From Thermoproteus sp. (GTDB taxonomy: Archaea; Thermoproteota; Thermoprotei; Thermoproteales; Thermoproteaceae), in the NCBI GenBank assembly GCA_038893495.1, contig JAWARJ010000001.1:1-64000 (forward strand): a stretch of 64,000 nt of DNA. Reading direction: 5' to 3'. The position numbers and the translations under genes are program-made. Below are positions 1 through 19,787 of this stretch, piece after piece (positions within the stretch are counted from its first letter, which is position 1; each line of letters begins with the position of its first letter). The notes below the pieces were generated by a model. That model saw nothing but the letters and a program-made list of their open reading frames with translations, ran no database searches and was not told the origin of the DNA.

Positions 1-3325
<3,325 letters not shown>

Positions 3326-3580
3326 GTGCGGACGGCGGGCGAAAGGGCGTGGCGGCGTGGGGTCCTTTTAACTCCTCTCTGTCTTGTCGGTTCTTGGCGC
3401 TCGCCATGTGTTTGTATGGCGGGGCTTGTGCGATAGCGTGCGATGTTTGGCTATCGTGGGGTCTATGCGTTGAGGCGTGTTGTGTCCGATATTGGAGATG
3501 GCCGTGGACATGTCGGCGATTGGTGTGGCTTGTTGTGTCTGGTGTTGGGTGGTGCGCCGCCGCTGGTCTTAGCGACGTTA
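3326..3580 (+). other. 23S 3' processing arm and GT-rich rDNA trailer, no gene
   Basis: Bases 3326-3338 are the 3' arm of the 23S processing stem. A pyrimidine-rich stretch at 3363-3385 (ccttttaactcctctctgtc) may be where rRNA transcription ends. From about 3395 to 3560 the plus strand is strongly rich in G and T. Reading frames cross it but have no start signals or family resemblance, so I see no gene here. Confidence 0.5.
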
Positions 3581-3590
3581 AGTATAAATA
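3581..3590 (+). promoter_or_regulatory. TATA box of the toxin-like operon
   Basis: agtataaata is centred 25 bases before ATG 3610. This spacing is that of a leaderless archaeal transcript and it fixes the start of the secreted protein. Confidence 0.7.
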
Positions 3591-3609: not shown

Positions 3610-6364
3610 ATGTTGGCCCCGCGGCTGGGGCTGGTCTTCTTTCTGCTTCTCGCCGCCTCGGCTTTGGCCTATAGCGTCTTCTGGGGCGAGTTTGTGCACT
3701 GCGACGTCGGCTCCTGCCTCTATCCCAATCCCGACGGGAGGTTTCTGTCTATCTCTCAGTCGTCTGTTGTTTTCGACACTAGGGGCGACCCCTCGGCTAT
3801 GGGCTTCTACGTGGTGGCGGTGGAGCTGACTAGACATACGCAGCTCAATATATCCGGCTGGTGGTCCTATTCCCTCCCCCGCACTATGGCCTATGTTGTG
3901 TCGGACAAGGGCTTTTCGGCTCTCGAGTGTTCGACGGGCGGGGGGGCAGACTTGTCTCGCCTCTGGCCTCCTTTCTCCGGGCGTCTACTACCTCGTGTTG
4001 GTCGACGCCTGGGCCCAGCAGACGGTCCGCGTGGAGGCCGACGGCCCCATTAGGCTTGTAGACGTTTCTGCCCAGCGGGCGGCCTGCGCCCTTTGGCGTT
4101 CCGGCGTCTTGAGGGGCCAGCGCCTCACCTACGCCTTCAACTGGCCTTCTACTCCGGGCGCCTCTATCTCGCAGGATGTGGACGAGTCCTCTTGCGGCCC
4201 GCCTCAACTCCAAGAGGCGCTGGCCTTCGCGGCGGCTGTGGGCCTCAACGCCTCTGAGGCGTCCCTCTTGACGGCGCCTTTAGGCTACAACGTGACGGCT
4301 GTGGAGAGGAGGTACGGCGAGGCCGTGTTTTACCTCCAGCCCGACCTCACCTACGTCGTCCCGCTGGTCTACGAGGTGCAGTGGCCCAACTCGGGCCGCC
4401 TCCTCCTCGTGAACCCCAGCGCGGTGAACGTGACTTGGGCTGTTGAGGTCCGCCTCTCCAACAAGTCGTCTTCCTCCGGCTCTTCCCACGGGCGCCTTCT
4501 GGGCGTCTTTAACGTGTCGCTTCCTCCCTATTCGGCGAGGTGGCTGTACCTCTTCGGCGCCTCTGAGGTGGGCGGCCTCTACGTCCTCTCGTATCGGGTT
4601 AGGGCCGTCGGCTCCTACAGCTGGGGCCCGCTGACTTTCAACACGGATGGGAGGCTGGTGGCTCAGAACGGCTCTCTCTTCAACTGGCTGTTGGGCTTTT
4701 TCGAGTCTTTGGGGGGCCGCCTCTCGGGGAATCAATGCGCCGTGGCTTACGGCGATGGGAGGAGGTGGGCGGCCGGGGAGATGTTCCTGCAGGGGCTGGC
4801 GACTGAGCTCGACGTGACGGCCGGCGGCGTCTTGACGGTCCTCACGTTTGGCGACTACGGGGCGGTTAGGCTCGGCGGGAGGTCTGCGGCTGAGGCCGTG
4901 GCGGCGGCTTCCGACTTGGCCAGGGCCGCGAGGGCCCTCCGTCTGGTCCAGTGGGCCGCCCTTTTGGCCAACGGGGCGGCTCTGGGCTACGACGCCTACC
5001 TCAAGGCCGCCTCTGGGGAGGTGCCTTGGGAGGAAATTGCCGACGCCGCGGTCCTTGCGGCGGGGCCTGTGGTGCAGAGGGCGCGGGCCGTCTCTGCGCT
5101 TCTCGCCGCCGGCTCTGGGGTCATGCTCTTCTTGGGGGAGCCCTTCGACGCGGCCTCTCAATTCTCTCAGGAGCTCTACTCGGCCGCGTCTCAGTACGGC
5201 AACTACTCGGACTGTTTCGTCTCCGGCGCCCTCGCCGCCCTTTCGACTTACGTCAAGGAGGTCTACGCGGCGAACGCAATCGGCGTGGTCTCCACATTCG
5301 TTGACCTCTCCCGCGCGACTCGGAGCCCCGCCTGGGCCGCCTACAGACAGCTGGCGGCACTGTCGGCTTTTGAGTATAGAACGCCTGGTCCTATATATAT
5401 TGATGCAGAATTGTTAAGGAGACTCGGTGGGAATTATAAATTTGTTTTTGTAGGAAAGGAGAAAATAGGGGTTAACCAAAATGGGGAACTTAGACTGTTC
5501 TATATTGGGTCTGAGAAAGGCGTATACCGAGTATTTACACGCAGTATTAGAGAGATTAGTTCCGTGGATATATTATCAAAAGGAGGATATACAGCACAAC
5601 TTGTACGTTTTTACTATCCTGCAGATAATGAATACCTATTAGGTGCTAGAATATTATTAAACAACAATCCCGTAGTTTTAGGATATAACGATGCCTTGGT
5701 TGCAGCACTAGTGGGTAAAGCTACTACAGGTCTTGTGTGGAAGGGAGAAGATGTCCATATAGCAAGAAAATTATTTAATACATATATAATCAATTTTGAT
5801 GTTTCAAAAATTGAACATTTAACTTCTTCAAGAGAAACATTAGTAAAATATCTTATGGGTCCTGTCTTGTCTGAATTATATGGTATACGCCCAGAGTTAT
5901 TAGGGTTTGAGGTAAGCCTGCCGTCTGGCTATGCGGAAGTGACTGTAAGGATGCCCATGCTAGGGATCAATCCTAACGATAAGGGACTTCAAATATATAT
6001 ACAGGGTCCAAGACCTGATTTGTTAGGCATCCTAGAAGACGGCCGTCTTTTATGGGTAGAGGTGAAAAACTTAGATAGGCTTTCCTCGTTTCCGCCTGAT
6101 CCTAACGATATAAACTACGTCAGACTTAAGGACGAATTTTTAAGCACGGGGGACAGAGCAATGTACTTAAAAAGGTTTATCAAAGATATGGGAGCCGAAA
6201 AAGCCTCTTCCCTCTTGACCGCCACAGTTTTGGCGTTTTCGGGCGCTGGTCCTACAGGCGGCACTGTATCTAATGTGTTTACAATGTCTCCTGTTTATAA
6301 GTTCCCAGACCTCTCTGGTAAGGTTCGTGTTGTATTTATAGTCGGTATTTTTCCGCGGAGATAG
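3610..6364 (+). CDS. Secreted polymorphic-toxin-like protein with C-terminal PD-(D/E)xK nuclease motif; frameshift at a G7 run
   Basis: The reading starts at ATG 3610 and shifts +1 at the G7 run 3940-3946; read with six Gs it gives about 917 residues. Residues 1-22 form a signal peptide (hydrophobic LGLVFFLLLAASALA). The GC-rich part to about residue 582 holds eight N-x-S/T sequons and all the cysteines, and ends in Ala-rich hydrophobic helices (about 400-575) like the helical segment before the tip in bacterial polymorphic toxins. From about nt 5356 the DNA turns AT-rich. The last 335 residues have no Cys and no sequon, and carry RPD (D803), then E817-V-K819, the spacing of a PD-(D/E)xK nuclease. 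A small ORF and a large ORF follow with a 4-base gap and a 4-base overlap. Seen: the composition change, signal peptide and motif. Inferred: an exported effector with a nuclease tip. No homolog was recognised by name, and the break may be real, phase-variable or an artefact. Confidence 0.6.
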
Positions 6365-6368
6365 AGCA

Positions 6369-6542
6369 GTGGTTTATAGCTCTGAGATGACGCTAGACGA
6401 GCTAGCTGATAAAGGTCTACTGGGTGAGATGTTTGACGAATTTGTGAATAACTTCAGCGCGGTTAACGCGGTAAGTGGCGGTGTTGATATACAACAGCTT
6501 GTCGATAAGTATTTATCTAAACTGCCTACCCCTCTTAGATGA
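6369..6542 (+). CDS. Small acidic protein, candidate immunity protein
   Basis: This frame starts at GTG 6369, four bases after the toxin-like stop, and gives 57 residues (51 if ATG 6387 is used). Its TGA overlaps the next ATG as ATGA at 6539. The peptide is acidic (about nine Asp/Glu against four Lys/Arg in the shorter form) and probably helical, with no signal peptide or membrane segment. Its AT-rich composition matches the toxin tip rather than the GC-rich flanks, as expected if tip and small gene moved together. In polymorphic toxin loci the gene right after the toxin usually encodes the cognate immunity protein, and immunities to nucleases are often small and acidic. That role is inferred from position and charge only; no family was recognised. 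Confidence 0.5.
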   Translation: MVYSSEMTLDELADKGLLGEMFDEFVNNFSAVNAVSGGVDIQQLVDKYLSKLPTPLR

Positions 6543-8194
6543 GGTTTTTGTCCGCCTCTTTGGCTGACTCTGGGGAGTTCCGCGTGTGGGCATTTCGACA
6601 TGATGTGGTGAATACGGCGGGCGACGCGTTGTTGCTGGCCGACCGGTTTGAGGCAGAGACGCCTCGCAGATTGGCTGTGGGCGTGGCTAATTGCGTCTTG
6701 TGGGCCTCGGCGGGGGTGGGGAGGAGGCTGGCGGCTCCGCTGGCCGACGTCGAGTGCCTGGCCGTTGAGGCCGACGGCGTTTTGTACAGCCCTGCCGCCT
6801 CTCTCCACTCCTTATCCACGTTTTTAGAAAGCTTAGTGGAGTTCGGCCGTGGGGCCCTTCCCTGCAGACACCTCTGGCCGCCTTTTATAGCAGAGGGCCG
6901 CCGCCCTGTGAGGCTGATACACAGATGGCCCTACGGCGTCGTCGCGGGCGGCCTCGTCAAGGTTTTAGAGTATCCGGAGGGCTACCCGGCCCGCTACGCC
7001 TCGACCGTCCTTAAGCTGTACGGCGTGGCTGGCGAGGGCCTCATCACAACGCCCTCCCGCGCGCCGGGACGGGGCCTCCACATAGGCGAGGAGTACGGCG
7101 TCTACCTAGACGGCCTCGTAAAGATGGAAAGCCCGTGGGGTCTCGACTTCGCCCTCAACGTAGTCCTCGGCACGGTGGGGGACAAGTGGATTCTCATGGG
7201 CAGAGACGGGCTGTACGAGGCTGTGTTTGTTAAAACTGGGGGCGCTAAGGGGGAGGTGGGCTACGTAAAGGTGACGTCTCCCTACGAAGGCGACGTGAGG
7301 CTTGTGGAAGGCCCTAGTTATTGCAATTTTGAGCTGTGTGGAGACGTTGCGAGGTGGCCTTTAGACAGTGGGGGCGTCTGCCTGTCTGCGGCTCCCGACG
7401 TGTCGGTTGAGGCCGTGGAGGAGTGGGCTGTGTTGCTTCCGCCCGACTTCCTGCCCGAGGGGTTGCGGCCCCCGCGCGCATCTCCGTTGTTGTTTTCAGA
7501 CGACTACGTCTACTTGTTCACGTCGACAGAAGAGAGACATAGACTGCGTGCCTATAGGCTTACGCGGGGGTATATTGCGCTGGCCGCCCCCGCCGCAGGC
7601 GCGAAGTGGAGAATACCGCTTAAGCCGCCGTACGGCGGGGCGAGGATTTCGAAGGGCGGCGTAGACAGCTACGCGCTGTATAGGTGGCTGGACGCCTCCG
7701 TTTTGTATAAATACTACGAGCCCCTTGCCTCGGCCTACGGCGCCGTCGGCGGAGGGTTTTTTGACAGAATCGCCATCCCGGGCGGAGGCCTAGACGCCGG
7801 CGCCGAGTTTGAGGTCTACCTCGGCGACTTCCTGCTACTAAAATCCCCCCGAGGCGTCGACCTTGCCCTCAACGTAGTCCTCGGCACGGTGGGGGACAAG
7901 TGGATTCTCATGGGCAGAGACGGGCTGTACGAAGCTGTCTTCAAGCGAGAAGGGGGCGCCGGGGGGAAGGTGGGGTATGTAAAAGTAGTGGGGCCGTATG
8001 GAGGCGACGTGGGGCTTGTGGAGGGCCCTCCCGCCCTGGGCGAGTTTCTGCCGTCTGAGTGCGGGTACTGGTCTCCGCTTACCGGGCGTTGTTACGCAGA
8101 CCCTAGACTTGACGTAGTTAAGAAGTGGCCTTTGGAGACTGTAGACGCCTCGGAGTACCTACACCTCCTTGAGGAGATACTCGCCCCCCGCTAG
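6539..8194 (+). CDS. Cytoplasmic protein with two tandem related halves, downstream of the toxin-like gene
   Basis: This 551-residue protein has no signal peptide or membrane segment. It consists of two related halves. The best-conserved block, beginning ALNVVLGTVGDKWILMG, occurs at about residues 205-265 and 443-503. The DNA of its core is identical over 68 bases (7151-7218 and 7865-7932). Outside the core the halves match weakly but in the same order (PYG, ASVL, PG-GL, VYL), and each ends in a Cys-containing stretch. The start overlaps the preceding small gene by ATGA, so translation is probably coupled. It could be a second immunity or accessory protein of the toxin-like locus, or an unrelated protein sharing the transcript. 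No known family was recognised. Confidence 0.7.
   Translation: MRFLSASLADSGEFRVWAFRHDVVNTAGDALLLADRFEAETPRRLAVGVANCVLWASAGVGRRLAAPLADVECLAVEADGVLYSPAASLHSLSTFLESLVEFGRGALPCRHLWPPFIAEGRRPVRLIHRWPYGVVAGGLVKVLEYPEGYPARYASTVLKLYGVAGEGLITTPSRAPGRGLHIGEEYGVYLDGLVKMESPWGLDFALNVVLGTVGDKWILMGRDGLYEAVFVKTGGAKGEVGYVKVTSPYEGDVRLVEGPSYCNFELCGDVARWPLDSGGVCLSAAPDVSVEAVEEWAVLLPPDFLPEGLRPPRASPLLFSDDYVYLFTSTEERHRLRAYRLTRGYIALAAPAAGAKWRIPLKPPYGGARISKGGVDSYALYRWLDASVLYKYYEPLASAYGAVGGGFFDRIAIPGGGLDAGAEFEVYLGDFLLLKSPRGVDLALNVVLGTVGDKWILMGRDGLYEAVFKREGGAGGKVGYVKVVGPYGGDVGLVEGPPALGEFLPSECGYWSPLTGRCYADPRLDVVKKWPLETVDASEYLHLLEEILAPR
7151..7218 (+). repeat. 68-bp direct repeat, copy 1
   Basis: Identical to 7865-7932, 714 bases (238 codons, same frame) downstream within the same gene. 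The identity is confined to the core of the duplicated protein block, which suggests gene conversion after an older duplication. Confidence 0.95.
7865..7932 (+). repeat. 68-bp direct repeat, copy 2
   Basis: Exact copy of 7151-7218. Recombination between the copies would delete one repeat unit in frame. Confidence 0.95.
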
Positions 8195-8397
8195 ACGGCG
8201 CCCGCGCAGGCTGAGGGCCGCCTCCGGCGTAGCCCCGGGCCGTTCGAGAGCTAAGAGCCCACGCACCGCGGCGTCTGGTCCGGCCCTGGCGATTTGGAGT
8301 TAGAAGGAATGGCGGAGGGCCCTGGAGCATCGAAAGGGGCGCCTGAGCCGTTCGGCGTACAACGGGGGCTTCCCGGCGGGGGGCCTCCAGCCCGTTT
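8195..8397 (+). other. Intergenic, no gene seen
   Basis: GC-rich stretch after the tandem-halves protein. It has no open frame with a plausible start, no tRNA fold and no clear TATA box. Confidence 0.5.
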
Positions 8398-8574
8398 ATG
8401 GCAGATCAAGCATCGTACTACCCGAAGAAGTTTGGCCCAGGCGATGTGGTATTCATAGTGGTAGCGGCCGATAGGGAGAAGGCTGTGGTGTTTGTGACGT
8501 CGTTAGAAGAGTTAAAAGACGTGGGCTTCCTAAAACGTGTGGCACAGGAGGTTTATTTGCCTATCCCAGCTTGA
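8398..8574 (+). CDS. Small hypothetical protein (58 aa)
   Basis: An ATG at 8398 opens a 58-residue frame beginning MADQASYYPKKFGPGDVVF with normal GC-rich codon use. It has a hydrophobic strand (VVFIVVA) and a charged middle, and no signal peptide. It ends inside the convergent gene on the other strand (14-base overlap). No good TATA box is visible upstream, so it may be a remnant of a longer gene. No family was recognised. Confidence 0.4.
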   Translation: MADQASYYPKKFGPGDVVFIVVAADREKAVVFVTSLEELKDVGFLKRVAQEVYLPIPA

Positions 8575-10051: not shown

Positions 10052-10405
10052 CTACAGCACGAGTATTTTGCTCTTTTCGAGCCTTCCCGTCCTGGGGTCT
10101 ACCTTTAGGTCGAGGGACTCTAGCGTCAACACGCCGATGAGCACGTGTTCTAAACCGTCTAGCACTACGGCTCTGTCTATCGTCCTATCGCCCAGTAGCT
10201 CGACCTCTACGTACGCCAGCCACGCCTTGGCCGCGCCCGCCGCCGTGGTTACCTCAACGTCTCTAATCTTCTCCAAGCCCAGCTCCTTGGCCACCGCAGT
10301 AGGTATGCTCGTCCTAGTGGCCCTGGTGTCTATTAAAGCCTCTCCCTCCCACTCTAGGCCCTTCCACGGATTTCTAAGCCTCACCTTGACCCATATGTGT
10401 CCCAC
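10052..10405 (-). CDS. Retropepsin-like aspartyl protease homolog with altered active site (117 aa)
   Basis: I choose GTG 10405 over the upstream ATG. It gives the MGHIW-type N terminus of the paralog at 63094-63447, exactly the same length (117 residues), and a TATA box 22 bases upstream. The fold pattern is that of small clan AA proteases of archaea: the flap-like region, a late VLIGVLTLESLDL strand, then a D-P-x-T-G-x-L ending. The catalytic D-T-G is here D-T-R (in ALIDTRATRTSIP), whereas the paralog keeps DTGAT. Gly to Arg beside the catalytic Asp should disturb the active site, so this copy may be inactive or work as a binding protein. The substrate is unknown. Confidence 0.75.
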   Translation of the reverse strand: MGHIWVKVRLRNPWKGLEWEGEALIDTRATRTSIPTAVAKELGLEKIRDVEVTTAAGAAKAWLAYVEVELLGDRTIDRAVVLDGLEHVLIGVLTLESLDLKVDPRTGRLEKSKILVL

Positions 10406-10420
10406 GTCTCTAACTACTCG

Positions 10421-10430
10421 ACTTTTTAAA
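10421..10430 (-). promoter_or_regulatory. TATA box deciding the GTG start at 10405
   Basis: Minus-strand tttaaaaagt, centred about 21 bases from GTG 10405. The longer frame from 10567 would place this promoter inside the gene. Confidence 0.55.
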
Positions 10431-10628
10431 TCAGCTTCGCAAGGCCGCCTCAAGGCTCGCGGCAACGCGCCGGGGCGCTCCGCCACGGGAGCTGGGGGCG
10501 GCGGGACGCCCTCTGGGCGCCTCAAGGCGGTAACTCGCGTGGGCGGGCTACAGACGGCTCGCCGCAACTGGACGCCGTGCTGACGTCCTTACTCTCCCTT
10601 TAAGGCTAGGCGGAGCGGGCCCTCGAAA

Positions 10629-10638
10629 CGTTTTAAAG
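10629..10638 (+). promoter_or_regulatory. TATA box of the Nudix gene
   Basis: cgttttaaag is centred 25 bases before GTG 10658, which supports that start. Confidence 0.55.
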
Positions 10639-10657
10639 ACTGTATGCGGTCGGAGTT

Positions 10658-11107
10658 GTGGCCAGCCTGCCCGGGCCGCAGAGTAGGCGACCTTGCCACG
10701 TGGTGGCTTCCCACTTGTTTCTGGTGGAGGGGGGCCGCATCTTGCTGTTGAAGAGGCGCAACACTGGCTATTTCGACGGCTACTACAGCGTGCCGGCCGG
10801 CCACGTGGAGGAGGGGGAGGACGCCGTGCAGACGGTGATTAGAGAGGCTAGGGAGGAGGTCGGCATTACTCTGAAAGAGGTTGAGTTCGCCTATGTGATG
10901 CACCGCTTCGAGGGCCACTATAGGGTGGACTTCTTCTTCAAGGCGTTGAGGTACGACGGCGCTCCCACAAATGCCGAGCCTTCTAAAGCCGAGGAGGTGG
11001 CCTTCTACCCCGTCGACTCGTTGCCCGACAACGTGGTGCCCTACGTCAAGAAGGCCATTGTCGACTACTTCATATATGGGAAGAAGTTCGGCAGGTTTTT
11101 CCTATAA
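10658..11107 (+). CDS. Nudix hydrolase
   Basis: A 149-residue protein from GTG 10658. The Nudix box is complete: G-H-V-E-E-G-E, seven residues, then R-E-A-R-E-E-V-G-I, giving the Gx5Ex7REUXEEXGU signature at about residues 49-71 that binds the metal-diphosphate. Nudix enzymes hydrolyse nucleoside diphosphates linked to another group, for example oxidised nucleotides or ADP-ribose; the substrate cannot be told from sequence. The 3' end overlaps the MFS-like gene by 32 bases, so the two are probably co-transcribed. Confidence 0.9.
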   Translation: MASLPGPQSRRPCHVVASHLFLVEGGRILLLKRRNTGYFDGYYSVPAGHVEEGEDAVQTVIREAREEVGITLKEVEFAYVMHRFEGHYRVDFFFKALRYDGAPTNAEPSKAEEVAFYPVDSLPDNVVPYVKKAIVDYFIYGKKFGRFFL

Positions 11108-12101
11108 CGCCCTGCTGGCCTACTTGTCGATAGTACAAGCCTCATTTGCCTCAGACGCCGTCTACCTCGCCCAGACGTTGACCCCCTCGCAGTTCTTCGA
11201 GGTCTTCCTCTGGTACTACCTCTCCCTAGCGGCGTCGAGAGTTATCTTCGGCTATGCCGCCGATTGGCTCGGCTCTGGCGTCTTGCTGAGGGCCTCGCTT
11301 GTGTTCCAACTACTCGCCAACTTGCTGACCGGCTTCGCGCACGACTGGGCGTCCGCCTCGGTTGGGCGTTTGTTAAGGGGGCTGGCCACAAACGCCATGA
11401 TTATAGGAGTGCTGGAGGGCGCCTCTCATGCCCATTTTAGGAAGCTGTACGGACTGACCGAGCTGGCCATGGCCGCCGGCTACTCCGCGGCCTACGTCGC
11501 GCCGCGGCAATACGCATACGTGGCGTATTCCGTGTCGACTCTCTTTTTTGTTTTTACGAAGCCTCCGAGCGCGGCCGCGGCGCCTAGGCTTACGATATCT
11601 AAAAGCATAGTCCCCATAGCGGTGTCTGAGTCTTTCCTCAACGCGGGGCTTGCGCTCACAGTGCCCATAGCCTTAAAGCTTTCAGTGGGGGACCTCCTCA
11701 TGCCCGGCGTCTTGGCTCTAGCCGTGCTGACTAGAGCCGTTGTTCAGCTCGCCTCGCAGAGGGCGCTCGGCGCCGCAGAAGTTGCCGTAATTAGGACGGC
11801 CGAGGCGGCGATGTTGTACTCGATGTCCTACCTCCACGACTACGCCGCCGCGGTTTTGTACCTCGCCGTAAATGCCTTCGCCGGGTACTACAGGCCGTCG
11901 GTGGGCTTGCTCATACGCAAGGCGGCCCACAGGGCGGGGGACTTGGGCTTCCACTACTTCCTCAGAGACGTGGGCTCGCTCACAGGCTCCCTGCTGGGGA
12001 TTTGGCTCGGCGCGGACGTATTTAAAGGCATCGCCCTCTGCTACCTCTCCTCTGCGGCAGTACTTGCGTTTCTCGTCAAGAGCCCACCCGCACGCACTTA
12101 A
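11076..12101 (+). CDS. MFS-like membrane transporter
   Basis: A polytopic membrane protein of 341 residues with about ten hydrophobic segments. After the second helix comes a short motif RVIFGYAADWLGSG that resembles the loop 2-3 motif of the major facilitator superfamily (G-x-x-x-D-R/W). I take ATG 11076, which overlaps the end of the Nudix gene; the frame is open further upstream, but there it encodes no hydrophobic sequence. At 341 residues it is shorter than the usual 400 of 12-helix MFS proteins. The substrate is unknown. Confidence 0.7.
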   Translation: MGRSSAGFSYNALLAYLSIVQASFASDAVYLAQTLTPSQFFEVFLWYYLSLAASRVIFGYAADWLGSGVLLRASLVFQLLANLLTGFAHDWASASVGRLLRGLATNAMIIGVLEGASHAHFRKLYGLTELAMAAGYSAAYVAPRQYAYVAYSVSTLFFVFTKPPSAAAAPRLTISKSIVPIAVSESFLNAGLALTVPIALKLSVGDLLMPGVLALAVLTRAVVQLASQRALGAAEVAVIRTAEAAMLYSMSYLHDYAAAVLYLAVNAFAGYYRPSVGLLIRKAAHRAGDLGFHYFLRDVGSLTGSLLGIWLGADVFKGIALCYLSSAAVLAFLVKSPPART

Positions 12102-12109
12102 ACGCTCCC

Positions 12110-12335
12110 TCCGAGCCCCACGCCGCGAGGGCGGCTATAGTAGCTTGCGCCTCGGCCAGCCAAATAGCGGCATCCGCCCCACAGCCCTATGCCTAACTTT
12201 TCACACCTCGGCGACCCACCGGCGCGTCCCGCCGCCAAAAGGACCTCCCACACGAAGTCCCCTCTGCGCATCGGCGTAGACGTAGATGTCGGCGCCGATC
12301 CCATCTAAAATAAATTCACGCTGGCGGCATCGCCC
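12110..12335 (-). pseudogene. Decayed coding remnant on the minus strand
   Basis: Two protein-like blocks lie in different minus-strand frames. One reads ILDGIGADIYVYADAQRGL and runs to a stop near 12207. The other reads ADAAIWLAEAQATIAALAAW and ends towards the convergent MFS-like gene. Neither has a start codon of its own. They look like one gene broken by a frameshift. No family was recognised. Confidence 0.35.
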
Positions 12336-12403
12336 TTATGCCTATTAACAAATACTAAGGCAGTTGCTAGAAGAAGATATATATCTCTTCGGACTAGTTC
12401 TAG

Positions 12404-12681
12404 AAGCAGACTCAAAATTTATCTGAAGAGGCCAAGAAGATTATATGTAGCGAATTGCGAGACGGCATTGTAACTGTCGTGGTTTTACTAGTTGGATTTT
12501 TAGTCTATATGTATGGTCAGATTCGAAGCTTCTTGTTTCTAATTGGCCGTTGGCTTTGGTCGTCTTTGTGGTATTGGGGGCTATCCCTATTATGGCTCTA
12601 AGTTATAAGCTTGGGAGGGAGTTGGCGGCTGAGTACGCTCCCGTGGAGAGGGCTCGTGCTGTGGCCTCTGGATTAGAGTAG
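12404..12681 (+). pseudogene. Broken gene for a small two-helix membrane protein
   Basis: A TATA-like gatatatatc at 12375-12384 would put a leaderless start at 12404, where the codon is AAG rather than ATG. The frame from there encodes EEAKKIICSELRDG and a transmembrane segment (VTVVVLLVGFLVYMYG). After a frame change near 12515-12530 a second hydrophobic segment (LALVVFVVLGAIPIMAL) and a charged tail follow, ending at TAG 12679-12681. Both segments look conserved in kind, which suggests a recent loss. The stop overlaps the GTG of the next gene. Confidence 0.45.
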
Positions 12682-13266
12682 TGGGAGGTAGGGTGTGTTT
12701 TTCCGGAGCCCGCCCGCGTGGTGTGGCGTTATTACCGTACTATGTTACGGGGCGTAGGCTTGTGGAGTCTGTCTACGAGGCCGAGGGCGGCGTTGTGGAC
12801 TGCGTAGAGCCGAGCGGTTGGTATCTCGCCGTGAGGGGCCTTATTGTGGAGGATGTCTGGCCGGTGTACTACGTGGGTGGGGGTGCCGGTGCTGGTGACC
12901 GGCGTGCCTAAGGCCGCGGCCGATTTCGGAGATAAGAGAGTAGAACACGAGGGTTGCCTCTGGAGGGTGCCGGAGGGCTGTAGGGCGTGGGGCTCCATGG
13001 GGATTCAGCTCGGCGCCATGCCCTGTAGGGAGGAGCTGAGGCCCGCCGTCTACGTAGGCGCAGACCACGTGTTAAAAGTGGCGAGGCTAAAGCCCTACTC
13101 TAGAGCGCTGTTTGACGGCTTGGGGCTTTCAAAAATCGTACTACAATGCGGCCTCGAGAGGGAGGAGGCCCTCGTAAGGCCGGAGAAATGCGTGGAGTTG
13201 CCTAAGGCTTGGATGTACGTGAAGGGCGAAGAGACAAGGCCGCCGCAGGAAGCTACGTGCGGCTGA
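12681..13266 (+). pseudogene. Frameshifted gene of unknown function
   Basis: A frame from GTG 12681 runs to VWPVYYVGGG and then loses sense. The continuation is in the frame that reads WVGVPVLVTGVPKAAADFG and ends at 13266. The break lies at the G-rich gtgggtgggggtg around 12873-12885. Joined, it gives about 195 residues with seven or more cysteines and no signal peptide. The region to 13540 still has protein-like pieces in other frames, so the gene may once have been longer. No family was recognised. Confidence 0.45.
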
Positions 13267-13517
13267 AAACGCCGTCGTGGCGACGACCGGCCCGCGGAGT
13301 CGTGTCTGGGCCTGCGTCGAGGCGGCTTCCCCAAGCCGGGGGCGCCCAGCGGAGGGACATACGACTTAGTGGGGGCCGTTGGGAATACGTCGAGGGGCTG
13401 GCGGGGTCGGAGGAGTTTTCAGCTATTTCGCGAAAAACGAGGTGAAGGCCATCCCAAAGGAGGTGGTGGGGCTTTCCCCCTTTATGCAGGAAAGGCTGTC
13501 CGCTGGAGACGTAATGA
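13267..13517 (+). other. Degenerate stretch between genes
   Basis: Short protein-like pieces occur in different plus-strand frames, for example RWEYVEGLAGSEEF and NEVKAIPKEVVGLSPFMQE. They may be the tail of the broken gene before it. Nothing intact is seen. Confidence 0.35.
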
Positions 13518-13529
13518 AAATTTTTATGC
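13518..13529 (+). promoter_or_regulatory. TATA box of the 520-residue surface protein
   Basis: aaatttttatgc, centred 24 bases before ATG 13548. Confidence 0.5.
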
Positions 13530-13547
13530 ATACCAAGAGCCGTAAAT

Positions 13548-15110
13548 ATGTCGTCGGGAGGGGCTGGGCGGCGTCGGGCGTTTCGGACAGTGCTGTTTGC
13601 GCTGTTGGCCGCGGCGGCCATCCTCCTAATTGCGTACCAGACGCCCAACCCCGGCGTCACCATAAAGTTCGAGCTGTATGAAGACGGCGTGGGGGAGACG
13701 GACCTCTTGGCGAGGCCCGACGTGGCGGCTGTGGCGTTTGTGAGGGCAATCACGCCGGACGGCGAGGTGCCTGTATATATGGTAAGCACGAATGGAGTTG
13801 TCCACATACCGGCCTCGGCGCTGGCAGGCGCGGCTAAGAACTGGACAGATCTGCTGAGGGCTAGAGGGCACGACCCGGCGGATTTCTTCACGGCGCTGAT
13901 CGTAAGTCTAGTCGTCGTCAATAGGACCAACGGTGAGTTGTTGTGGCACGTCGTGTATTTCCTCGACTACCCGCCCGCCAAAATCGCGCGGGGAGACACG
14001 GAGCTCATCTACACACTTCATGTTGTTAAAAGCAGGGGCGAGAAGAGAGGATACGTGGCGAGAGTAGACCGGGAGGAGAAGAGGCCGCTCATCCCCGGAG
14101 CGGGCGGGGCGTTGCACGCCGCCTTCGGGCCTCCCTACGGCGAGCCGCCTAAGGAGGTATGGTGCGAATACATCCCCTCGGCCACATCGTTCTGTTGGTA
14201 CAGAAAGGCGTGGGTGGGTGTGGACAACTTGACGGAGGTGTTCCCAAGCTCCTACTTCTCTACATTCGACGGCAAGCTGTACGTGAAGACGCCGATGTTG
14301 ATGGCCGTCAATAACTTCACCTACAGCGGAACAGTCGACTTCGGCATAATGATTATACCAGCTACGTCGCGGCTCGCCGTAGGCGCCGCCGTCGCCGCGC
14401 CGGGCGAGCACGGCCCCTCTATTAGTCTAGCGGGGTGGAGTTGGGGAGGACAACGATATTACTTATCTGATGTGCTGGCTCTCGGCCCCACTACATCAGG
14501 CTGGATTTGGATATGGGGAAGGCCCGTCTTTACGTCGTACGACGTATGGTACTACACAGGCACCCACTCCTACTATGAAGGCGAGGAGGACTACTTCTAC
14601 ATAGCCGACATATATGTGAGCGGGACCACAGTGGTGTCGGGCCTCTCGTTCGGCCTCCCTCAAGAAATTATTAACTTCTTCTACGGTGGGATAAATAAAC
14701 AGCAACTGGTTATACCCGACATGGCCTTGGCCGACGGCAAGCTAGACCCCGGAGAGACATTTCAGCTCGGCCAGATCTTCCCCTATTTTGATAAGTGTGG
14801 CGCCGATTTTGAGGTAGGAGTCCCAATAGGCGCGGTGGCGGCGGCCGTATTGGCGAGGTCGCCTATACGGTTGGCGTTGTCGAAAGACGCCATCCCTGGC
14901 GTAGAGGTCTCGCTGTCAGTGCAAGGCGCCAATATCTACGTCTTTGGTAGTATACATAACTACGGAGACCATCCCGGCATTCCGACAGACCACGACGTGC
15001 CGGAGTTCATATATGTCGCTGTCGGCAAATATAGTTATACGGCTAGAGACATATGGGGCAATACGTGTTTGTATCAAGTGCCCGCGGGGCTGTACGTAGA
15101 GTCCAGATAG
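13548..15110 (+). CDS. Large membrane-anchored extracytoplasmic protein, unknown function
   Basis: A protein of 520 residues. An N-terminal positive patch (GAGRRRAFR) and one hydrophobic segment (about residues 14-30, ending LLIAYQTP) give an uncleaved anchor or signal peptide. The rest is outside, rich in aromatic residues and beta structure, with sequons (NWT, NRT, NLT, NFT) and a few cysteines. The middle (about 290-380) is rich in Trp and Tyr (GWIWIWG, YDVWYYTGTHSYYEGEEDYFY). It is a single gene with its own TATA box. It may be a surface or adhesion protein; no family was recognised. Unlike its neighbours it has no frame break. Confidence 0.75.
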   Translation: MSSGGAGRRRAFRTVLFALLAAAAILLIAYQTPNPGVTIKFELYEDGVGETDLLARPDVAAVAFVRAITPDGEVPVYMVSTNGVVHIPASALAGAAKNWTDLLRARGHDPADFFTALIVSLVVVNRTNGELLWHVVYFLDYPPAKIARGDTELIYTLHVVKSRGEKRGYVARVDREEKRPLIPGAGGALHAAFGPPYGEPPKEVWCEYIPSATSFCWYRKAWVGVDNLTEVFPSSYFSTFDGKLYVKTPMLMAVNNFTYSGTVDFGIMIIPATSRLAVGAAVAAPGEHGPSISLAGWSWGGQRYYLSDVLALGPTTSGWIWIWGRPVFTSYDVWYYTGTHSYYEGEEDYFYIADIYVSGTTVVSGLSFGLPQEIINFFYGGINKQQLVIPDMALADGKLDPGETFQLGQIFPYFDKCGADFEVGVPIGAVAAAVLARSPIRLALSKDAIPGVEVSLSVQGANIYVFGSIHNYGDHPGIPTDHDVPEFIYVAVGKYSYTARDIWGNTCLYQVPAGLYVESR

Positions 15111-16099
15111 CTCTAACCCCACCGCTTTTTAAAGTGTGGTTGCCTTATAGGAGCCCGCCTCGTCGTCTAAGTCGTCGCCCCCACAGGTCCGCACAGATGG
15201 GGCGGGGTCCTTACGGTGCGTTGCCCTACACGACGATGGGACATCGGCGAGCCTCTGCAATTCGGCGCGTTAAAACGTTTGGCATAATCCTTTTTGGTCA
15301 CGCGGCTAGGGGTACGCAGAAGGCGCGCACGCCGACCCGCCATTGCGGCTCGACCACCCAATCGGCGCTGTACCGACCTCCCGCGCGGCCTAGAGCCTGG
15401 ACTGGAGACAGCCGGCGGCCCTCGCCGCCTCGTCACGGGCCTAACATCTGTATCATTAAGCCCCCGGCGCCTCGTTGACCTGCACATCCCTGAAGGGCCT
15501 ATCGCTACTGTGTACAGAGCCGCCCTCGCGGCTAACGAGGGGGCCCCGCCGCCTAGACGCCCAGCGCCGGCCTAGGTCTTCCAACATGTTCGCACGGCTA
15601 CCACGCCGGATTGCCCATAGAGGAGCCCGTCTGGGCGTTTCCCTTTGGCCGGCGCCCAGCCTCTGCGATGGAGGTCAGAGACCCCAAGGCGGTGACCTGA
15701 GCACATGGGCTCCACTAGGCAGGTTTAAAGCGGGCTAGAGGGCAAGAGGGCTGGCCGATTTGCCTGACGTGCGCCTCGTTGCCACAGGGCTGGTCGAGGA
15801 GGGAGACGCCTCAGGCTGGCGCCGCGTCTCGCTCGACCGATAGGGTCTCTACTCCGAGCCTTTTTGCGGCTTGACGTAAGTCTGGTTGCCTCAGCTCACG
15901 CCTCGGCGCAGTTGTCACTGAGGCGCACCGACGCCGTCGACTGCGCAACCTTACACCAGCACGCCTAGCAGACCGCCGTGCGCAAGCCGTCTGGAGGATG
16001 CGTCCCTCCGCGGTCGTGGAGGGGCGCCGAGGCCTATGTGCCGTGACGACTATCGGCGTTCTGTTGCTTGGCGGACTGGCCGTGTAGGTCGACGAGGGC
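15111..16099 (+). other. About 1 kb without an intact gene
   Basis: Open frames here lack starts and resemble nothing. Two pieces look like decayed coding sequence: FGIILFGHAARG at 15278-15313, which resembles the LFG-S-x-ARG motif of minimal nucleotidyltransferases, and LPDVRLVATGLVEEGDASG at about 15760-15816, which ends in a stop at 15842. A TATA-like tttttaaag lies at 15125. No tRNA, repeat array or insertion element is seen. Confidence 0.4.
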
Positions 16100-16564
16100 C
16101 TACGCGGCTAGAAAGCCTTTTAGTCTCTCTACTAGCTTCAAGACGGCGTCGCGGTGTAGCTCAAATTCTTTTGCCTTCATGAAGTTGTGGTAGAAGTTGG
16201 CGTGTAGGCCCTCCGCCATTCTGAACCACATGACTAACTCCTTGTCTCCTGTCTCTTCGTACAGCTGGCCTATCAGCTCGGCGTAGTCTCTATGGCTGTA
16301 GTGGGGAGCGCCGCGGATTTCCGCTATGGCGTTTAACAGAGCCGTGACCGCCCCCCAGTACTTCTCGCCGGCTTGCGGCAAGTCGCCCTTTGAGTACAGC
16401 TCCTCCGCATCCGCCAGATACTTCTCGTAGAGCCTTAGGTAGAGCTCGACCCTCCGCGGGGGGTCTAGGCTCTGCGCCAACAGGTCCGCGAGGAAGAGCT
16501 CCAAGTCCCTTCCCCCAGCCGCCTTCCTCAAAAACTCGGCCAACACGGGGGACAAAGTAACCAC
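16100..16564 (-). CDS. PaREP1-type HEPN-like protein
   Basis: About 154 residues when started at GTG 16564, which has a TATA box (gctttataact) 23 bases upstream; an upstream GTG at 16615 would add 17 residues but would contain that promoter. The sequence has the PaREP1 pattern: a helical N terminus, then an E-L-Y-L-x-x-Y-x-K-Y-L-x-x-A-E-x-L-Y block, a G-D-x-x-Q-A-G-E-K-Y-W-G-A segment at about 75-87, and a helical tail with GLHANFYHNFM. The family is expanded in Thermoproteales and related to HEPN domains; its biochemical role is not established. Confidence 0.8.
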   Translation of the reverse strand: MVTLSPVLAEFLRKAAGGRDLELFLADLLAQSLDPPRRVELYLRLYEKYLADAEELYSKGDLPQAGEKYWGAVTALLNAIAEIRGAPHYSHRDYAELIGQLYEETGDKELVMWFRMAEGLHANFYHNFMKAKEFELHRDAVLKLVERLKGFLAA

Positions 16565-16581
16565 GTCATCTACCCCATCGA

Positions 16582-16592
16582 AGTTATAAAGC
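16582..16592 (-). promoter_or_regulatory. TATA box of the PaREP1-type gene
   Basis: Minus-strand gctttataact, centred 23 bases before GTG 16564. Confidence 0.55.
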
Positions 16593-16759
16593 TTGACGCC
16601 TTCACGTACTCCCACATACCTCTTTTAGCCTCCTCTTCCAATAGCGCGGGACCTCGACGTCTCTGCCCCAACTCGCCGTGTTGGAACTCATTGGCGTGAG
16701 CCCCGCCGCAAGTCTCCAGCAGTGGCGCTCTTGCGGCCTCGTGCGAGGGCCTAACGAAG

Positions 16760-16770
16760 CTTTTAAACTT
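16760..16770 (+). promoter_or_regulatory. TATA box of the HEPN/nucleotidyltransferase pair
   Basis: cttttaaactt, centred about 23 bases before GTG 16788. Confidence 0.55.
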
Positions 16771-16787
16771 TCGCGGCAGACTTGGGC

Positions 16788-17200
16788 GTGGATGTAGACG
16801 AATATAGGAGGTGGCTAGACATGGCTGAGAGGACTGTGAAGCCGGCGGTCAGAGACGCCGAGGGCGGGGACTACAACTGGGCGTGTTTTAAGGCCCACCA
16901 GGCGGCGGAGTTCGCCCTAAAGGCCTTGTTGTACGGGATCGGGAGGCCCGTCAGAGGCCATTCGGCGACCCGGCTTCTTAGAGAAATCTCTGCCTTCGCG
17001 GAGGTGGGGAAGAGCTCTTCGAGCTCGCCGCCCTTTTGGACAGGTTCTACGTGCCTACGCGCTATGTGGACGCTTGGAGCGAGGGAGTCCCCTACGAGTA
17101 CTTCACGAGGAGGGACGCCGAGTCCGCGTTGAAGGCGGCCGAAAAAATTTTAGAGTTCGTGAAAGAGACGTGGCGGCGTTTGAGTAGAGGAAGAGGCTGA
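16788..17200 (+). pseudogene. HEPN-domain protein with a one-base frameshift
   Basis: From leaderless GTG 16788 the frame encodes a HEPN domain: YRRWLDMAERTVKPAVRDAE, then YNWACFKAHQAAEFALKALLY and GHSATRLLREI. At the G4 run 17006-17009 the sense moves to another frame, which continues ELFELAALLDRFYVPTRY, YEYFTRRDAESALKAAEKIL and stops at 17198-17200. One extra G would restore about 138 residues. HEPN proteins pair with minimal nucleotidyltransferases as toxin and antitoxin or related defence modules, and that partner gene follows. The break may be decay or a sequencing artefact. Confidence 0.65.
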
Positions 17201-17525
17201 GGGAGGAGGCCTTGAGGAAGGCGCGGGACTTCGCGGATAGGGTGGGAGGCGCTGTGTTTTTGGTGGGCTCCTACGCGAGGGGGACTTCTCGGAGGACAGC
17301 GACGTGGACCTCTTGGTGGTGGGCCGCCTCGCCGAGCCGCCCCACCGTGGGCTTCTAGGCGTGTGGGAGCCCGGCGTCGAGGTGTTGGCCCTTATGGTCG
17401 AGGAGGCCCTGAAGGCCGTGGAGAGGTGCTACCCGTTGGCGCGGGACGTCGCCTTGGGGATGGTGTTGCGGGATGACTTAAAGATCGCCGATAGGCTGGT
17501 GGAACTAGCCAAGAGGTGTTTATGA
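17170..17525 (+). pseudogene. Minimal nucleotidyltransferase (MNT) with a frameshift and an early stop
   Basis: The MNT core is visible: a helix (REEALRKARDFADRVG), the strand VFLVGSYARG, then in a shifted frame DFSEDSDVDLLVV with the paired aspartates of the metal site. The shift is at the G5 run 17279-17283; one extra G would restore the usual GSYARGDFSEDSDVDLL. Upstream, a GTG at 17170 is followed in frame by TAG at 17185, and the first later start is TTG 17212. The protein would then be about 105-118 residues. It overlaps the HEPN gene. In such pairs the MNT protein usually modifies or neutralises the HEPN partner. Confidence 0.6.
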
Positions 17526-17641
17526 CGGCCTTATGGCGTAAGCGCTCTCTCGGCGGCGTGATCTGCCCTATTTCCAGCAAAAACGGCGCCGTTTGTCTGC
17601 CGAAACGGATTGAGTTGCTAGGGATTCGGCAAGGGCGATTG

Positions 17642-17653
17642 GGTTTATTTTTA
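17642..17653 (+). promoter_or_regulatory. TATA box of the CLC gene
   Basis: gtttatttttaa, centred about 24 bases before ATG 17670. Confidence 0.55.
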
Positions 17654-17669
17654 ATGCAGTATTTCAGCT

Positions 17670-19004
17670 ATGAATTACGCCATTAAGTGGCTCCTTTACG
17701 GCGTCATTATTGGCGTAGTCGCGGGGCTTTCAGCGCTTTTGTTTCACTTCACCGTGTCGCTCATAGCCGACGTCTTCGCGTCGATCACAGGCTTCTCGCC
17801 GACGAGCCCCAACGTCCACGGCGTCAGGTACTGGTTGACGCCGATCGCGGTGGCCGCAGGGGCCTTCGCGTCGGGCCTCTTGGTCTATACGTTCGTGGGA
17901 AGTTCTGAGGAGTTGGGCATAAACGCGATGATAGAGGCGTACCATAAGCGTCGAGGCGAGGTGGGCGTTAAAGTGCCCATATTGGGCTGGTTGGCCTCGG
18001 CGCTAACTATAGGATTCGGCGGCTCGGTAGGTAGCGAGGCGCCTATGGCTACGCTATCCGGCGGCCTCACATCGTTGCTAATGTCCAAGCTGGGCGCCGA
18101 TGATGCCGATAGGAGGACGGCGTTCGCGGCGGCCTTAGGCGTCGGCATAGGCGCGATACTGAAGGCGCCGGTCGGCGGCGCCATACTCTCCGCGGAGATC
18201 CTCTATAGGCGCGACGTGGAGTGGGCCGTCCTATACCCGTCGTTGGTCGCCTCGTCGATAGCCTATGTAATCTACTCTTCGGTCACGGGGTTCGGGCCTC
18301 TGCTCGGCAATTACAACGCGGCCGTGAGCGTTTACGAGCAACCGCTCTTCATCGCCGTCGGCGCCGTCGATGGGCTCATGGCGAGGCTCTACGTATACTC
18401 ACTACATAAATCCCACGAATGGTTTAAGGCGTTGAGGATCAATAATTACGCCAAACCGCTCGTCGGAGGGCTGGTCGTCGGGTCGATGGGCCTTATAGCC
18501 CCTGAGGTTCTAGGCGAGGGGCTGAGTTGGGCGAAGGTAGCCCTTTCGGGCCGTCTAGACGGCTTCGTGGTGTTGGGCTTGCCGGCCGCTGGCGCGGTCC
18601 TGGCCGTATTGCTTGTGCTACTGCCCTTCCTGAAGGTCGTCGCCACGGCGCTCACCGTAAACTCGGGGGCGGCCGGCGGTATTTTTGTGCCCGGCCTAGC
18701 GGTCGGCGCGTTCCTTGGGCTCGACATGGGCCTATTGTTCCGCCTAGCGTTCCCCGGAGTCGTGGGCGACGTAGTTCCGTTCGTCGTGGCCAGCATGCTC
18801 GCTATGTTCGGAGTCGCGTCTAGGGCCCCGCTGGCCGTCACCGCGATGGTCCTCGAGATGACGAACGACTACCGTGCAGTTATAGGCGCGTTGTTGGCTC
18901 TGGCCGTCGCCTACGTGGTGATCGGCGACGAGACGGTATTCCCGGCCCAACCGGCGAGTAAGCTAGCTGAAACGCCGAAGGCCTTACCTACAGAGCTCTT
19001 TTAG
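17670..19004 (+). CDS. CLC-type chloride channel or Cl-/H+ antiporter
   Basis: A 444-residue membrane protein of the CLC family with the expected order of signatures: GSVGSEAP (about residue 116, with the gating glutamate of the G-x-E-x-P element), GIGAILKAPVGGAILSAEIL near 155 and GGIFVPGLAVGAFLG near 333. No cytoplasmic CBS domains are attached. Two separate CBS-domain genes lie convergently just downstream, and the nearer one overlaps this gene by 21 bases. Both channels and proton-coupled exchangers occur in the family. The second (internal proton) glutamate of the exchangers was not assigned. Confidence 0.93.
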   Translation: MNYAIKWLLYGVIIGVVAGLSALLFHFTVSLIADVFASITGFSPTSPNVHGVRYWLTPIAVAAGAFASGLLVYTFVGSSEELGINAMIEAYHKRRGEVGVKVPILGWLASALTIGFGGSVGSEAPMATLSGGLTSLLMSKLGADDADRRTAFAAALGVGIGAILKAPVGGAILSAEILYRRDVEWAVLYPSLVASSIAYVIYSSVTGFGPLLGNYNAAVSVYEQPLFIAVGAVDGLMARLYVYSLHKSHEWFKALRINNYAKPLVGGLVVGSMGLIAPEVLGEGLSWAKVALSGRLDGFVVLGLPAAGAVLAVLLVLLPFLKVVATALTVNSGAAGGIFVPGLAVGAFLGLDMGLLFRLAFPGVVGDVVPFVVASMLAMFGVASRAPLAVTAMVLEMTNDYRAVIGALLALAVAYVVIGDETVFPAQPASKLAETPKALPTELF

Positions 19005-19373
19005 CCTCTGCGGATTTACTATGTCCCTTATGGATATAACTCCGACCATCCGCCCGCCGTCCATAACGACTAAGTGCCTTATGTTGTACATCCACATGAG
19101 CTCCGCGGCCCTCGTCAGCGGCTCGTTAGCGTCTATGGTTATAAGGCTTGTCGACATGAAGGCCTCGACGGGCGTCGATAGGGGCAGTCTGGCGCTTATA
19201 GCCCTCACTATGTCGCGCTCCGACAGTACGGCCACTGGCACGTCTGGCTTCTCTCTGTCGACTACCACCAACGCGCCGACTCCATGCCTCGTCAGCGCAT
19301 CCGCCGCGTCGAGTAGTGTGGCGTCGCGCGGTATCGTTATGGGGGGCCTCCTTATTAGATCCCGCACCTTCAT
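18984..19373 (-). CDS. CBS-domain protein
   Basis: This 129-residue protein consists of two CBS motifs, one in each half: MKVRDLIRRPPITIPRDAT with VAVLSERDIVRAI, and ITIDANEPLTRAAELM with MVGVISIRDIVN. Paired CBS motifs bind AMP, ATP, S-adenosylmethionine or similar ligands and act as energy sensors. I choose ATG 19373 because it overlaps the TGA of the upstream CBS gene as ATGA. A longer frame to 19394 lies within that gene. Its 3' end runs into the CLC gene from the opposite side. Confidence 0.88.
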   Translation of the reverse strand: MKVRDLIRRPPITIPRDATLLDAADALTRHGVGALVVVDREKPDVPVAVLSERDIVRAISARLPLSTPVEAFMSTSLITIDANEPLTRAAELMWMYNIRHLVVMDGGRMVGVISIRDIVNPQRLKELCR

Positions 19374-19786
19374 TCCTCCGGCGGCGGCCACCATACCCTA
19401 TCTCCGAGGGACCTCAAGGCTCTGTCCTCCAGAAGGTCTCTAATCGAGATTACCCCCACGGCCCTCCCCTTCTCGTCTACTACTATCAGGTGCCTAACCC
19501 TCCTTTCTCTCATCTTCCTCAAGGCCTCGTATATATCGTCGTTGCGGGAGGCCGTTAGCAAATTGCCGCTTGTGCCGACCTCAAGCGCCTTGGCGCCCAA
19601 CGCCCCTCTGGCGGCGGCCCTAACTATATCGCGCTCAGTGATTATGCCCAACGGCCTCCCCTCCTCGTCCACTATGACCACAGAGCCTATATTCCTCTCG
19701 GCCATGAGCTCCGCCGCTTGTTGCGCCGTGGCGTCTCTGCCTAGCGTCACGGGGGGACCCTTTATGTAATCGCCGACGTGCGACAT
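19370..19786 (-). CDS. CBS-domain protein
   Basis: This 138-residue protein has two CBS motifs (GPPVTLGRDATAQQAAELM with IITERDIVRAA, and LLTASRNDDIYEALRKM with AVGVISIRDLLED). The start at ATG 19786 lies one base after the TGA of the PEP carboxylase gene. It sits in one operon, ppcA then this gene then a second CBS gene, so an adenylate-sensing role towards carbon fixation or the nearby CLC protein is possible. That is inference; stand-alone CBS proteins have many partners. Confidence 0.88.
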   Translation of the reverse strand: MSHVGDYIKGPPVTLGRDATAQQAAELMAERNIGSVVIVDEEGRPLGIITERDIVRAAARGALGAKALEVGTSGNLLTASRNDDIYEALRKMRERRVRHLIVVDEKGRAVGVISIRDLLEDRALRSLGDRVWWPPPEE

Positions 19787-19787
19787 G

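Follow-up and report, generated by a model that had tools for sequence, protein, structure and literature searches.

The polymorphic toxin systems surveyed by Zhang et al. (2012, PMC3482391), such as CDI with its CdiA-CT or the Rhs tips, are built around a long secreted protein with a constant body and an exchangeable C-terminal tip that can be nuclease-like, with immunity genes behind the tip and orphan tip cassettes downstream. Hyperthermophiles tend to be without such systems according to the 2012 survey (PMC3482391), and the archaeal polymorphic toxins were predicted but uncharacterised as of 2021 (PMC8416519). As summarized in the latter paper, Makarova et al. (2019, mBio 10:e00715-19) predicted arrays of toxin and immunity genes in archaea, with nucleases being the commonest tips. 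VARTIG modules of Thermococcales likewise have a recombined hypervariable C-terminal end and variable downstream genes, and have been proposed to serve self/non-self recognition or virus evasion (PMC8416519).

We analyzed a 64,000-nucleotide stretch of Thermoproteus sp. DNA (hereafter, the window) that carries a locus with the same overall organisation as the polymorphic toxin systems: a long secreted protein with a constant body and an exchangeable nuclease-like tip, immunity-like genes behind the tip, and orphan tip cassettes downstream, found in the relatives G007 and G016 and as a fossil in the window. The locus departs from the known systems in its body, for which Pfam and NCBIfam gave no match, in an immunity-like family that is unrecognised, in orphan tips that mostly begin just behind the catalytic motif, and in its hosts, which are hyperthermophilic archaea. 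The arrangement of candidate toxin plus immunity genes and the nuclease-like tips are shared with the archaeal predictions of Makarova et al. as far as these are summarized in PMC8416519. VARTIG modules contain Ig domains and lack anything recognisable as a toxin, whereas the family described here has a nuclease motif in the tip and its large protein has no Pfam Ig match; a further difference from VARTIG is that nearly identical genomes place the crossovers within a few tens of bases. Judged by these likenesses, the locus would be filed best among the polymorphic toxin systems, as a variant in hyperthermophilic Thermoproteaceae. We tentatively suggest that it may represent a new polymorphic toxin family of these organisms that sits next to the rRNA operon, has a delivery body and an immunity family of its own and spreads between species by recombination; tip replacement in this family would cut the old nuclease just behind its catalytic motif and keep the immunity gene. 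No earlier mention of this Pyrobaculum/Thermoproteus family was found in the literature searched, the 2019 archaeal survey lying outside its scope.

Taken together, the sequences make it quite probable that the window holds a degraded polymorphic-toxin-like system, whose tip was exchanged by recombination and which has one or more immunity-like genes behind the tip. The secreted protein, of ~970 aa, would consist of a conserved delivery body and an exchangeable C-terminal nuclease-like tip cassette, and the immunity-like genes behind it would encode cytoplasmic proteins. By recombination, the GC-rich body would have received an AT-rich tip at nt ~5366, with part of an older tip left behind the immunity-like gene. 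The composition step, the tip types, the orphan fragments, a before/after pair of genomes, the D/E/K motif and the two-frameshift break can all be read from the sequences; from these we infer that the protein may be exported and enter rival cells, where the tip would be toxic through its nuclease and the product of the following gene would protect, with selection acting via competition between strains. The window copy would then be a damaged member of the family in which the composition step records the import of a tip, while Pyrobaculum supplies intact candidate toxin/immunity pairs. In addition, the family offers a testable nuclease motif and two genomes that naturally represent the states before and after a tip replacement, the crossovers being placed within tens of bases.

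The toxin-like gene lies directly downstream of the 23S rRNA in the window (Table 1) and no more than ~7 kb downstream of it in four relatives (G012, G016, G007 and G009, those in which blastn placed a 23S rRNA inside the stretch read). The gene starts upstream of the open reading frame (ORF) at 3893, its N-terminal end with the signal peptide being read in frame 1 from 3610 and followed by the G7 run. The N-terminal part matched relatives at 67–81% by blastp and positions 4–102 of the body profile (iE 4.7e-47), and the rest of the body matched positions 96–575 of 575 (iE 7.6e-266). The N-terminus, judged by eye, is signal-peptide-like in the window and the relatives; the body has many N-glycosylation-like sites. 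The body gave no Pfam or NCBIfam match at curated cut-offs, no RHS or filamentous-haemagglutinin repeats were recognised in it, and no delivery domain of known kind was found in the Pfam/NCBIfam searches.

Table 1 Features of the toxin-like locus and its surroundings in the window.
Feature	Coordinates	Strand	Evidence
16S rRNA 3' end	1-240		Rfam
23S rRNA	291..3335	+	Rfam, blastn
TATAAATA, archaeal promoter-like box, ~25 nt before likely ATG (3610)	3583..3590	+	read directly; inference
N-terminus (MLAPRLGLVFFLLLAASALAYS...) carrying the signal peptide; frame differs from that of the rest	3610..3951	+	blastp, body profile
Conserved GC-rich body, GC3 ~0.82	3932..5371	+	body profile, GC3
G7 run at frame break (G6 in G012 and G013)	3940..3946	+	alignments
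Composition change point and domain border, at conserved ...YRQLAALSAFEY motif	5366..5366	+	GC3, alignment
AT-rich tip at the C-terminus (GC3 0.33), with a putative PD-(D/E)XK-like nuclease region	5372..6361	+	tip profile 1-312/380, GC3
Candidate catalytic D (6017-6019), E (6059-6061) and K (6065-6067): PDLLGILEDGRLLWVEVK	6017..6067	+	invariant columns, alignment A1
Frameshifted 3' end of tip	6354..6542	+	tip profile 312-366, iE 5e-5; DNA alignment with G012
Candidate immunity gene, 551 aa, GC3 0.72-0.74, doubled domain	6539..8194	+	
Decayed GC-richer tip fragment of G007/G013/G016 type, in several frames	8282..8556	+	tblastn, tip profile

The window gene is broken by two frameshifts, one at the G7 run (3940–3946) and one near the 3' end of the tip, and because of these the copy as sequenced is probably not functional. 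There is close to an even chance that the locus is a decaying transferred pseudogene without current function, a reading that is compatible with a history of tip replacement: besides the two frameshifts and the decayed scrap downstream, copies in other genomes are interrupted as well, with an additional G in a run of Gs in G009, a TGG to TAG change in G016 and a partial copy in G013. On the other hand, the open frames of the tip and the immunity-like genes are still long, intact copies are present in G007, G012 and G013, and the first break, a single G within a run of Gs, could reflect a reversible change or an error of sequencing. A single extra G breaks two of the homologues, at 3940–3946 in the window (G7 vs G6) and at ~9848 of the L018 stretch in G009 (G5 vs G4). 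Such extra Gs in short G runs could reflect errors of sequencing, decay, or an on/off switch that can be reversed.

We examined the tip for signs of a nuclease. The D, E and K of a D-x13-E-V-K motif were invariant in alignment A1, and all intact tips keep the motif. In the intact G012 protein the tip covers residues ~606–1004, with D838, E852 and K854 as candidate catalytic residues, and the gene behind it lies at 10230–11264 of L014. The G012 tip gave weak matches to NucS_C (E 0.003) and NucS (E 0.0008) at this motif, both below the curated cut-offs. A phylum-wide search with the tip profile returned short hits that coincide with this motif, most of them in frames ~240–296 aa long, as would fit NucS. 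The likeness to the NucS C-terminal domain (PF01939) is a local similarity around D...E-x-K; only the catalytic core matches, and here the tip sits on a secreted protein. The structural model of the tip (pTM 0.81) has an order of secondary structures compatible with the alpha-beta-beta-beta-alpha-beta core of PD-(D/E)XK enzymes. A Foldseek search of this model against solved structures gave no significant match (best E 5.6e-3); the non-significant fold matches include EXO5, AdnAB, DinG, a Cas4-like protein and NucS.

The first-pass annotation had taken the small ORF at 6369–6542 for a candidate immunity gene that shared the foreign composition of the tip. This assignment was rejected: read in a shifted frame, the ORF matched positions 312–366 of the tip profile, and at the DNA level it aligns with the end of the G012 gene, which is uninterrupted there. 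It is thus the last part of the tip, thrown into another frame. The gene at 6539–8194, which contains two copies of a domain seen in the genes behind the tips of relatives, has a host-like GC3 of 0.72–0.74; the candidate immunity gene is therefore without the composition of the tip. Similarity between tips correlated with similarity between the next genes (rho 0.67, 1/5000 permutations), and the correlation was lower after near-duplicates had been removed (rho 0.41, 200/5000). The immunity-like proteins have no Pfam or NCBIfam family at curated cut-offs, and the fold model of the immunity-like protein, itself of low confidence, gave no match. In Pyrobaculum sp. WP30 (G013), the neighbouring immunity-like genes at L017 15038–16878 have a nearly identical middle segment (e.g. 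ALNVVLGTVGDKWILMGRDGLYEAVF), and both halves of the window gene at 6539–8194 likewise contain such a segment, which suggests that the copies exchange sequence or that the segment serves as a substrate for recombination. In the same genome a 1011-aa ankyrin-repeat protein (L017 7773–10808) lies behind the partial second gene copy and occupies the place of the immunity-like gene.

An alternative without a toxin sees here a hypervariable surface or recognition protein; shuffling of its end would serve to tell self from non-self or to evade viruses. Its secreted body with many N-glycosylation-like sites would suit this role, as would the shuffling of ends by cross-species recombination described for VARTIG (PMC8416519). 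We consider it unlikely, since D-x13-E-V-K is the sole sharply conserved part of tips that are otherwise 25–35% identical and is a nuclease signature with resemblance to NucS, and since the genes behind the tips are read without obvious signal peptides and track the tip type.

For the polymorphic-toxin-like system that we favor, the composition of the gene bears on how the present tip was acquired. The GC content of 0.61–0.74 over 4.6–5.3 kb falls to 0.33–0.47 over 5.4–6.5 kb and is 0.675 again at 6600–6799. A change-point test on third codon positions of ORF 3893–~6364 placed the best change point at codon 491 (nt ~5366), where GC3 drops from 0.82 to 0.33 with a log-likelihood ratio of 105.9. 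The switch from GC-rich to AT-rich DNA inside one frame, which the first-pass annotation had put at ~5356, is thus borne out, as is its extent to ~6.5 kb, although the small gene said to share it is no separate gene. A 464-kb sample of the same genome contains 155 ORFs that are 330 aa or longer; this step was the strongest among them, and the runner-up had a log-likelihood ratio of 26.7. The AT-rich 1-kb stretch has a GC content of 0.398 against a genome mean of 0.569 (SD 0.044), and equally low values were seen in 18 of 4430 overlapping 1-kb windows of this genome. These results indicate that the step is real, extreme and not due to chance. Other 1-kb stretches of the genome, near 1469400 (L034) and 1777800 (L037), are still more AT-rich (GC 0.30–0.32); they are probably mobile elements.

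The step at nt ~5366 coincides with a domain border of the secreted protein. Sequence identity falls right behind the motif YRQLAALSAF, where the composition steps; the drop lies at residue ~587 of the full protein, close to residue ~583 at which similarity had been expected to stop. Whole-length homologues in the relatives have the GC3 drop at the same border (body/tip 0.79/0.45, 0.84/0.64, 0.77/0.70 and 0.79/0.67), which is in part the pattern that the first-pass annotation had set against its own reading. Since the relatives have a milder step at this place, the border itself is old within the family. Unlike the position of the border, the size of the step is not conserved, and no other tip compared departs nearly as far in composition as that of the window.

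Full-length homologues were found only in the genome of the window and in its sister genus (g3), which includes Pyrobaculum sp. WP30; among GTDB contigs the related locus was found once, in Pyrobaculum sp. WP30 (CP012158.1). Between proteins with different tip types, the bodies are 48–71% identical in amino acids and the tips 24–45%; the body reaches 90% in the N-terminal part of G012 and G009, a region that includes a recent exchange. Where the tip type is shared (G007, G013 and G016), tips are 70–79% or more and bodies 66–80% or more identical, that is, both are equally conserved. When the G013/G007 pair was scaled to the body distance of G012 and G007, tips were expected at ~69% identity and observed at 30–34%. 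Tips falling this far below the identity expected from body distance form discrete types. Faster evolution of the tip without replacement was rejected on the high tip identities within a type (70–79%).

Tip replacement by recombination, as proposed in the first-pass annotation, is well supported by these sequence comparisons: the position of the drop is shared, the tips form types, orphan fragments lie downstream, and two genomes form a before/after pair. This pair is G007 and G016, which are ~97% identical across the locus. In their paralogue B the identity is 92–100% up to G007 position 6813 and ~50% beyond it, where G007 carries its own tip and two immunity-like genes; from G007 10265 onward the two agree again (96.4%), the matching part of G016 being the 3' end of its tip together with its immunity-like gene. 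Because this downstream copy of the G016 tip is truncated, G007 most simply represents the derived state. G007 and G016 have further orphan tip fragments, most of them followed by an immunity-like gene, and an immunity-like gene lies directly behind or before three of the four intact orphan tip fragments of the family. Most orphan tips begin just behind E-V-K, as do G007 10203–10670, 16664–17143 and 18165–18569 and window 8282–8556; the orphan at G007 ~19619–20224 keeps the motif (G007 10203–20224 is numbered on the reverse complement of L040+L016). This common starting point suggests that displacement removes the active site and spares the immunity-like gene. The window fragment at 8282–8556 matched the G007, G013 and G016 tips at 53–56% over 62–72 aa (tblastn) and positions 272–342 of the tip profile (iE 4e-13), starting a few residues behind the E-V-K position, and is probably a displaced older tip. 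In G004, of the same genus, only a tip scrap and broken immunity-like pieces lie behind the 23S rRNA.

It is very improbable that the step was mostly inherited, with a tip that was more AT-rich and fast-evolving from the outset and never replaced in the lineage of the window: the GC3 drop does lie at the same border in all relatives, but its size ranges from 0.07 to 0.49, tips of one type are 70–79% identical between genomes whose bodies differ as much as elsewhere, and displaced tip scraps exist, in the window included.

In support of replacement, ~950 bp inside the body are 98–100% identical in DNA between G012 and G009 and the identity then falls to ~50%, whereas flanking protein-coding DNA is 70–82% identical between species, which argues for recent interspecies recombination. 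Weighing against the favored reading, no AT-rich donor of the window tip was found in the genomes of the phylum (398 genomes, which gave only Thermoproteaceae tips and short nuclease-motif matches), and a viral or plasmid donor was rejected after searches of IMG/VR, phage and plasmid records had returned no match. G009 and G014 are 96% identical over a 4-kb stretch that spans the 23S end together with paralogue B (L018 2997–7035, L019 6315–10339), and a gene flanking this stretch is only 70% identical; the rRNA may anchor exchange between species. The 23S rRNA genes of G007 and G009 (L016 and L018) contain insertions with ORFs of 160–252 aa, which are probably introns with homing endonucleases.
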